Part shown: in pieces, positions 53,638-55,045 of the stretch
Numbering within the stretch: the stretch's first letter is position 1
Layout of the letters: every line of letters begins with the position of its first letter
Assembly: GCA_025934695.1 (NCBI GenBank)
Contig: JAICWS010000003.1
Span: 372,001-436,000, forward strand
Direction: 5' to 3'
Length of the DNA stretch: 64,000 nucleotides
Source of the DNA: Alphaproteobacteria bacterium
GTDB taxonomy: Bacteria > Pseudomonadota > Alphaproteobacteria > Micavibrionales > UBA2020
The notes under the pieces: generated by a model
The model's input: the letters and a program-made list of their open reading frames with translations, nothing else
Database searches by the model: none
Told to the model about the DNA's origin: nothing
Translations under genes and position numbers: made by a program

Positions 53638-54357
53638 ATGGCGCTGCCGCCAGAACTGCAAGACGAAGTGAAGAAGCTCGCCGGGCTGCCGGAAACGCCC
53701 GCGCTCGAGCAGGACATGCAGGAACATGCCGACGAGGCCGCGTCGCGCCAGCAGGGCGGCCATATCACCAAGATTTTCAATAGCGTCATCATCGGCTCGG
53801 AGAACCTGTCCGACGCCGAGCGCCTGGCGCAGGCCTATGCCGCCTCGCTGATTCAGAACAAACTCGTCGAAGAGAACAAGGTCAAGACGCTGGACTGGAA
53901 GACGGTTTTCAACAATGCCGCGGGCCGCCCTTATGACATGGCGATCGCCGACAACCTGGCGCAGGCCTTCCACGACGCCGAGGGCGGCGTGCTGATCATC
54001 AAGGAACCCTATCAATGCCCGTGGGACATGAGCCCGCGCGATTTTTCGCTGAAGAATTATGAAGCGACCAAACAGCTGATGGACAAGATCGTCGAGACCG
54101 ACAAGGACTTCGACGCGGCCATCGAGGCGCTGATCGAAAAAGGCAAGAACCTGAACGAAATCGAAGGCCAGATCTACGGCCAGGATTTCTCGAAGCCGCG
54201 CAACCCGGCAGTCATCCTCGTCGGGCGCAACTGGGAGCTGGAAAGCATGATCGCGGAAGACGCTTATCCCTGGAACGCGCGCTTCATGCACCGCATCGGC
54301 GTGAGCGACAGCGCGTTTGCCGGCGTAAAGCCGAAGCACCGCAAGCCCGCGCCCTGA
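53638..54357 (+). CDS. AAA+-like protein without a P-loop (predicted pseudo-ATPase)
   Basis: 239 aa. It follows the CbbX-type AAA+ domain in order: an N-terminal strand N-S-V-I-I-G-S-E-N (49-57) where the Walker A should stand, then the A-E-R-L-A-Q-A-Y helix; G-G-V-L-I-I-K-E-P (116-124) in place of GGVLFIDEAY; P-A-V-I-L-V-G-R-N (190-198) like the sensor-1 strand VVILAGY; and F-M-H-R-I (216-220) like the arginine-finger segment. No G-K-[ST] is present and the Walker-B acidic pair reads K-E, so it should not hydrolyse ATP. 19 nt before the tail-bearing gene, one operon. The AAA+ relation is my reading by eye. Confidence 0.55.
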   Translation: MALPPELQDEVKKLAGLPETPALEQDMQEHADEAASRQQGGHITKIFNSVIIGSENLSDAERLAQAYAASLIQNKLVEENKVKTLDWKTVFNNAAGRPYDMAIADNLAQAFHDAEGGVLIIKEPYQCPWDMSPRDFSLKNYEATKQLMDKIVETDKDFDAAIEALIEKGKNLNEIEGQIYGQDFSKPRNPAVILVGRNWELESMIAEDAYPWNARFMHRIGVSDSAFAGVKPKHRKPAP

Positions 54358-54376
54358 AAAGGCCAAGGAGCCGGTA

Positions 54377-55045
54377 ATGCTGGATTTCATTCGCGCATGG
54401 CGGAACAAACAACAAGACGAACGATCCCCGTCCCGGCTTGGCGCGGAATTCGACCTGAATGCGCGCACGGAAAGCGCGCAGCTGCGCCTGGAATGGGCCG
54501 CGAAGCTTGCCTATGACATCAACCGCCTGGGCGAGGAATATCAGCAGAGAGGCTACTCGACGGGCGGCATCACCGCGCAGGTGGCGACCGTGTCAGGCCG
54601 CAGCGATGGCGCACCGAAGATGGACCCCGTCACCGTTGCCGTGGCGGACAAGGCGGGAGCGCCGCTGCTGGCGTTGCGCGTGCTCAAAGACGATGCCGGC
54701 GCGCGCGTCGAGGTCGACGGCCTCAGCCCCGCCGCGCAGGATGCGCTGGCGCGGATGCCCGCAACGTTCGACGATCCCTTCAACCGCGTGCGCGGCGCGC
54801 TGACCGCCATGACACCGGACTGGGAAATCGGCGCTTCAGTCGCAACGGTGAAGCAGGGCGGCGTCGTTTTCGGCTCCAGCATGGATGCGGATAGCCGCGC
54901 GCAGATTGACGCGGACTGGCGGCAGAAACGCCTGGACCAGAAGGCTGCCGTTGAAGAACAGGCGCAGGCGGCGGCGCAAAGCGCTGTCGTGTTGCAGACG
55001 CCCACCACCGTCGGCGGGCCGCTGAAGCTGAAGGCGAAAGTCTGA
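54377..55045 (+). CDS. Unknown protein with helix linker and conserved C-terminal tail
   Basis: 222 aa with GGAGCCGGTA before the ATG. The first 150 residues look like an alpha/beta domain (V-T-V-A-V-A-D-K-A-G-A-P-L-L-A-L-R-V-L). An Ala/Gln/Glu-rich helix (about 175-200) follows, then V-G-G-P-L-K-L-K-A-K-V at the end, the sixth match to the shared tail. Contains A-D-W-R-Q-K-R-L as in the 31450 protein. Second gene of the operon with the AAA+-like protein. No family recognised. Confidence 0.6.
   Translation: MLDFIRAWRNKQQDERSPSRLGAEFDLNARTESAQLRLEWAAKLAYDINRLGEEYQQRGYSTGGITAQVATVSGRSDGAPKMDPVTVAVADKAGAPLLALRVLKDDAGARVEVDGLSPAAQDALARMPATFDDPFNRVRGALTAMTPDWEIGASVATVKQGGVVFGSSMDADSRAQIDADWRQKRLDQKAAVEEQAQAAAQSAVVLQTPTTVGGPLKLKAKV

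Follow-up and report, generated by a model that had tools for sequence, protein, structure and literature searches.

Genes and Features of the Locus

The window considered here is a stretch of 64,000 nucleotides that corresponds to positions 372001-436000 of contig 5 in a 4.13 Mb genome comprising 7 contigs, referred to as G000 in what follows. Two of its genes, ORF A and ORF B, are the focus of the present work (Table 1); their coordinates and the 19-nt spacing between them are as reported in the initial annotation. Both genes lie on the same strand, GGAG precedes the ATG of B, and the two are probably co-transcribed. Besides B, the surroundings of A include a tRNA-Gly gene and, as read by eye, genes that resemble those of fatty-acid oxidation. 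A 290-aa minus-strand ORF that extends across A was rejected by a simple codon-based gene caller (model trained on eight AAA+ genes), and both the presence of an orthologue with 56% identity and the pattern of changes over codon positions indicate that the plus-strand frame of A is the real one.

Table 1. Positions within the window of ORF A, ORF B, their sequence features and further tail-bearing ORFs
Feature	Position	Strand	Description
Tail-bearing ORF, ankyrin cluster	11717..12247	-	ends PVIVRKPIQLKF
Tail-bearing ORF, ankyrin cluster	12241..12774	-	ends RRLPVKKPLIVRPRPW
Tail-bearing ORF, ankyrin cluster	17050..17784	-	ends KLAVYKPLTFRR
Tail-bearing ORF	31940..32488	+	ends ETRVMRPLTFKPR
tRNA-Gly	53322-53396	-	upstream of A
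Promoter-like element	53548..53576	+	TTGACA(TAAT)-17 nt-GATAAA upstream of A; weak -10; absent from consensus scan
ORF A	53638..54357	+	239 aa; CbbX-type AAA+ core lacking P-loop and lid
GSENLSDAE, residues 53-61 of A	53794..53820	+	P-loop site; opposite GNPGTGKTT of L007/L213, to within one residue
GGVLIIKEPY, residues 116-125 of A	53983..54012	+	Walker B site (GGILFIDEAY); IKEPY opposite IDEAY
R215 in ARFMHRI of A	54280..54282	+	aligned to the Arg in SRF of intact CbbX-like proteins; candidate arginine finger
ORF B	54377..55045	+	222 aa orphan protein; shared tail at its end
Tail of B	54998..55042	+	TPTTVGGPLKLKAKV

A CbbX-Type AAA+ Core

When A is used as a single query no CbbX is retrieved from Pfam, NCBIfam or the PDB and only weak, sub-cut-off matches are obtained, with the best of these DUF5799 (E 0.0084) and Pch2_N (E 0.058) in Pfam, both under their cut-offs, and with best values of E 0.11 in NCBIfam and E 1.4 in the PDB. 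Similarly, the paralogue L067 as a single query gives no AAA+ protein in the PDB, and it is by the family profile alone that AAA+ is found. The family on which this profile is based has five members: A, its orthologue L066 in the related genome G001, and the paralogues L010 (G000), L067 and L071 (both G001). A search with A over 55 genomes of the order returned L066 (57% identity in the search, 56% in the alignment) along with the weak paralogues L010 and L067, one each; L071 was recruited via its C-terminal tail, described below, and fits the family. Against 177,635 PDB sequences the five-member profile places CbbX at the top (E 2.5e-4), followed by EccA1 of ESX secretion (PDB 9lur, E 1.9e-3), with the remaining matches at E >=1. 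EccA1 is an active ATPase with an extra N-terminal domain.

The AlphaFold model of A (mean pLDDT 64.8, pTM 0.68) has the strand-helix order of an AAA+ core and no lid. All four Foldseek matches under E 0.001 are to CbbX, and the VIA comparison with CbbX gives Z 15.7 (178 residues, rmsd 3.8), ahead of FtsH (13.1) and RuvB (12.9). A better model is obtained for L067 (pLDDT 78.8, pTM 0.77), where CbbX accounts for the top three Foldseek matches and for the highest VIA score, Z 18.5 (183-193 residues, rmsd 3.6-4.2), the runner-up scoring 13.3. By family profile and predicted fold, then, a CbbX-type alpha/beta AAA+ core is present in A, as was claimed initially from the order of its segments, and CbbX (PDB 3syl, 3syk, 3zuh), the red-type Rubisco activase, ranks first in the profile, Foldseek and VIA searches alike. 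The two proteins share the predicted core fold, the order of segments, the GGVL...Y surroundings of Walker B and an Arg that aligns with the SRI/SRF site; A differs from CbbX in having no P-loop, Walker-B Asp, pore-loop motif or lid. The fold matches to A also include the Ycf2-FtsHi motor (PDB 8xku, 8xqw). FtsHi subunits are inactive FtsH homologues that belong to the FtsH clade and are membrane proteins.

The strings on which the initial annotation was built, GSENLSDAE, GGVLIIKEPY, VILVGRN and ARFMHRI, are all in A, and alignment to the intact CbbX-like protein L007/L213 of the same genome confirms that the P-loop has been replaced and that the Asp-Glu of Walker B has become Lys-Glu. The intact references read VFTGNPGTGKTT...FIDEAY (L007) and IFLGNPGTGKTT...FIDEAY (L006). 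Walker A (GxxxxGK[ST]) is missing in all five family members, as is the Walker-B Asp-Glu (IKEPY, ISEPY, IENIY, IENIY and IPGIH), and the Walker-B Asp is gone as well in 8/8 modules that were chosen as P-loop-less. Missing too from A are the aromatic-x-Gly of the pore loop (NNAAGRP in A vs AGFVGQT in L007) and the helical lid, with A stopping 18 residues past the last strand of its model. At the site of R215, A and L066 have RFM where L007 has SRFM, and YFT is found in L067 and in a module from genome G033 that is described below. The Arg of the SRI/SRF motif in CbbX we take to be the arginine finger. Residues 1..224 of A range over 17..203 of CbbX, so that R215 would fall near CbbX residue 194 if the last stretch is ungapped, a placement that comes from the sequence alignment (RFM) and the offset of the alignment ranges and not from a residue-level structural alignment.

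Pfam has no family for members of the P-loop-less CbbX-type group and NCBIfam has none for A, and literature searches on inactive or degenerate AAA+ proteins and on CbbX paralogues gave, among the matches listed, none on a P-loop-less CbbX. No match to A was obtained among phages or plasmids, and of 13 pattern matches to A relatives in viral contigs none was confirmed.

Selection on ORF A

Differences between A and L066 number 78, 47 and 116 at codon positions 1, 2 and 3, respectively (239 codons), with dN 0.36, dS 0.91 and dN/dS ~0.39 (NG86), and an open frame of 239-247 codons is found in two species. In the congener G001, L066 lies beside the same downstream gene as at the A locus. The disappearance of the nucleotide motifs, the pore loop and the lid from A is what a functionless, decaying duplicate of a CbbX-like gene would present. 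The frame is nonetheless open in both species at 56% identity, third-position changes dominate, and this pattern and the dN/dS value speak against decay, as does the lack of a P-loop in all four closest homologues, which indicates that the loss is old. The only homologues with an intact P-loop, which the initial annotation regarded as the sign of a decayed gene, are remote ones, for example L007 and L006. We consider decay very improbable; most likely, given these comparisons, A is a gene kept by selection.

Intact CbbX-Like Proteins and Further P-Loop-Less Modules

G000 encodes at least two intact CbbX-like proteins, L007 (479 aa) and L006 (438 aa), which, of the proteins with a P-loop at the AAA loci examined in this genome, match the A profile best. 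Unlike A they have complete motifs, a lid and an N-terminal extension, and they are distant from it in sequence. Matches to L007 with E<=1e-10 are found in 28 of the 55 order genomes, and proteins with 75-100% identity are encoded in 6/6 genomes of the genus. A and L007 are unlinked, being located on contigs 5 and 2, respectively, and L007 is present without A in four of the six genus members, two of which are <90% complete.

A scan of 12,775 ORFs with the A profile picked up intact proteins and, in addition, three short CbbX-like ORFs that have no P-loop, one of 184 aa in G033 and two of 177 and 196 aa in G036, all directly 3' of an intact L007-type gene and on the same strand. In an 8-sequence search with the profile of the intact proteins these modules match with E 1.5e-21 to 1.3e-16 and are closer than A, for which E is 0.0036. 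No further dead module was found in 20 more stretches around CbbX-like genes (18 genomes). A dead gene next to a ring gene is seen in 2/5 of the family-f5 genomes examined (absent in G021, G039 and G042) and in 2/18 overall, counts that include stretches ending soon after the ring gene, such as that on G001 contig 43; beside the ring genes of A's own genus there is no dead module.

The eight modules without a P-loop make up one side of a branch in the 34-row tree, with support of 100/99, and the same branch is recovered with 99/98 when the P-loop and Walker-B columns are left out and with 98/98 and 96/92 when long rows are removed. These trees were calculated without L105 and L208, activators with GESGTGKE in which a P-loop is present, and the second set without L097 as well. 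The dead branches are very long, as a program warning notes, so that the grouping may be an artefact, and a single origin of the eight modules is possible without being proven.

ORF B and the Shared C-Terminal Tail

According to the initial annotation A and B might define a two-protein system that makes use of a tail at the end of B. The tail itself is borne out: the C-terminus of B is TTVGGPLKLKAKV, which conforms to a motif of the approximate form [IV]xVxKPLxLK near the stop, with membership in the tail class assessed by [IV]xVxxPLxLK within ~25 residues of the stop. The proposed pairing did not hold up. No convincing homologue of B was found in 54 other genomes of the order, the single weak match (G053, E 0.0075, residues 66-171) being taken as chance, and B is absent beside the A orthologue in G001, the sole other genome with A. 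With A present in just two of the 55 genomes of the order and B in one plus the one weak match, a conserved A-B pair was rejected. It is A's paralogues L010, L067 and L071 that carry the tail themselves, with A and L066 devoid of it, and, going by which proteins bear the motif, A's link to the tail runs through its paralogues.

Within the window a tail score >=13 is reached by 5/202 C-terminal 30-mers vs 1/1177 internal ones. G000 contains 21 exact CCNYTNAARYTNAAR sites (control 16), and at 15 of these the encoded motif lies no more than 11 residues from a stop. A profile made from 15 tails gives, at E<=0.01, 21 matches in G000, 18 in G001, 3 in G008, 1 in G038 and 0 in the other 51 genomes, and a second tail profile, for which the count in its own genome is a lower bound (36/139 candidates scored), has one weak match each in 2/240 other genomes of the class; the single matches in G038 and in these two class genomes are taken as chance. 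Using a PSSM, 42/871 ORF ends in tail loci score >=13 vs 0/4808 internal 30-mers and 2/17,420 shuffled ends, a count that is partly circular, these loci having also supplied the tails used to train the matrix; of the ORFs at the AAA loci, 1/184 reaches this value too. A fairer test is a sample at fixed spacing (20 x 20 kb per genome), in which the tail is found in 9/1712 ORFs of G000 and 0/1688 of the congener G003, where the sample falls short of the far ends of the contigs, with internal 30-mers giving 1/7704 and 1/7147, respectively. Five of the nine G000 matches lie outside the training set, and one of these (74 aa) is a doubtful gene. Scaled to all of G000 the sample corresponds to ~93 tail genes, or to ~54 if one stretch that overlaps an earlier tail locus and contributes four of the nine matches is left out, so that 5 in 380 kb remain.

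The tail-bearing ORFs identified ahead of this sample number 86, with 64 in G000 (hence at least 64 for this genome), 19 in G001 and 3 in G008, with the tail core 0 to 24 residues from the stop. By similarity of their bodies they fall into 35 clusters (25, 9, 6, four of 3, six pairs and 22 singles), the ORFs of G000 alone into 30. The largest cluster consists of ankyrin proteins (25/86), and Pfam assigns ankyrin to 25 of the 86, AAA_2 to 2 and macro, HAD and peptidase inhibitor I78 domains to 1 each; hydrophobic-hairpin and LRR-like proteins were recognized by eye. The genes are scattered among housekeeping genes. Literature searches on PLKLK and on ankyrin effectors with a conserved C-terminal motif in Alphaproteobacteria returned nothing relevant. 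An assignment to phage defence was considered and rejected, with the PADLOC models PDC-M72A (up to 26/86) and Ankyrin (19) read as recognizing ankyrin repeats.

The tail set also includes a second clade of inactivated AAA+ proteins, represented by a 204-aa ClpB/ClpA D2 module (L113 6088-6711 (+), the same as L053 979-1593) in which GPAGLSAMS replaces GPTGVGKTE and the Walker-B Asp-Glu is kept. It is conceivable that A works independently of any ring, with the dead core a reused protein-binding scaffold of the tail set and the tail, on the paralogues and on B, bringing such scaffolds to a common receptor. That this second dead clade is tailed, that three of the five A-family members have the tail on the same chain, and that ankyrin proteins dominate the set are all in keeping with such a role, as is the model of L067, in which residues 219-244, with the tail inside, have pLDDT under 50 and are probably accessible. 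Neither A nor L066 has the tail, however, B is an orphan, and in G033 and G036 the position of dead modules next to an intact ring gene points to a ring; we regard a ring-independent scaffold as possible but somewhat doubtful.

The tail could also be a translocation signal, such that an effector-like set of proteins, A's paralogues among them, leaves the cell and the dead AAA+ modules poison or mimic machines of a target cell. The ankyrin, macro, HAD, hairpin and LRR-like members would suit such a set, as would the scattering of the genes and the restriction of the E<=0.01 matches to the congeners G000 and G001, apart from three in G008 and a single doubtful one. In Orientia, ankyrin proteins are reported to have signals for type I secretion at the C-terminus (PMC4315096). 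Up to 23 of the 86 proteins match NCBIfam models of Dot/Icm ankyrin effectors (AnkY, AnkH and others), but in the first member these matches are partial, run via the ankyrin repeats and are far below the cut-off. PF02534, the VirD4/TraG coupling protein, has matches in 0/6 genomes of the genus, with the control search positive in 5/14 known genomes. A VirD4-type route for the tail proteins is disfavoured, no such T4SS coupling protein being found in the six genus genomes, and with A itself untailed we regard export as unlikely.

The most striking feature to emerge is the tail class that takes in A's paralogues. Common to these and to dozens of proteins unrelated to them, the tail would serve as an address tag at the C-terminus. 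By way of speculation, and with more doubt than confidence, one might envisage a lineage-specific protein-addressing system in which at least 64 and perhaps ~90 small proteins from 30+ unrelated families in one genome would carry one disordered tail for one receptor, the cargo including inactivated CbbX-type and ClpB-D2-type modules that would enter and control, or poison, the cell's own AAA+ rings.

A promoter regulon of tail genes was likewise considered. The string TTGACATAAT occurs exactly at four sites of the window, 53548, 55120, 12808 (+) and 42644 (-), and in the form TTGACATAAT-13-TATANT, with one mismatch, at 57 sites in G000, 43 in G001, 10-13 in four other members of the genus and 33 in G021. 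The regulon was rejected because G021 is without tail matches and because many of the extended promoter-like sites lie before untailed genes, which together suggest a promoter type of the lineage and are not proof of a regulon.

Several further observations were made on the tail genes. The tail-bearing ORF next to L053/L113 contains an AAA_2-like fragment of 99 aa (E 8.8e-6, narrowly missing the cut-off). Tandem tail genes are found in L092 9366-15903 (-) and L086 6568-8245 (-); these belong to the cluster of 9 and appear by eye to encode a hydrophobic hairpin. L060 850-1590 (+) combines a macro domain (Pfam E 1.6e-10) with the tail. L067 and L071 are located on G001 contig 103 at about 34.0-34.7 and 38.0-38.7 kb, within ~5 kb of each other, and the ankyrin gene beside them has a tail-like end, MAIKPIRLK.

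A Possible Partner of an Intact Ring

We favour, with a probability of about 0.5, an explanation in which A is a pseudo-ATPase and partners an intact CbbX-like ring. A selectively maintained CbbX/SpoVK-type alpha/beta core that is without P-loop, Walker-B Asp, pore-loop motif and lid would, without hydrolysing ATP, associate with an intact ring that L007 or L006 forms in the same cell. A may pack against the edge of a protomer, perhaps lending R215 to the ATP site of the neighbour, and the ring would in this manner be capped, tuned or re-targeted. The sister paralogues combine the same dead core with a flexible C-terminal tag, and B supplies such a tag to the locus.

The suggestion of the initial annotation that a dead module is the partner of an active ring receives indirect support: intact ring genes are present and dead modules adjoin them in G033 and G036, but none are adjacent in A's genus. 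Weighing against a partner role are the lack of linkage between A and L007, the absence of A from most genus members that have L007, the weak match of A to the profile of the intact proteins, the small number of genomes with adjacent dead modules, the long branches of the tree and the modest pLDDT of the A model. Lacking the pore-loop motif and the lid, A may moreover not fit a ring, and the Tyr that L067 and the G033 dead module have in place of R215 argues against a role for this residue.

Inactive AAA+ subunits are already known, and in the red-algal CmN/CmP assembly the structural subunit is of full length with its motifs kept. That similar dead modules adjoin an intact ring gene in G033 and G036 makes the idea of mixed rings in bacteria open to testing. 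The best precedent is the red-algal hetero-hexamer, a CbbX-type ring in which the plastid subunit tolerates a Walker-B mutation, with the ring still functional, and is reported to be mostly structural in role (PMC5437159).

Other AAA+ Proteins in G000 and G001

Intact CbbX-like AAA+ domains are also found as tandem or fused pairs in G001, at contig 196:10317-12246 and contig 5:12529-14310 (L231 and L232). In G000, L101 945-3644 (-) and L108 741-3206 (+) are unusual ClpB-like double-AAA+ proteins with frames of 900 and 822 aa, respectively, and L108 has, as read by eye, LTGLAGVGVSS at the position expected for the first P-loop.
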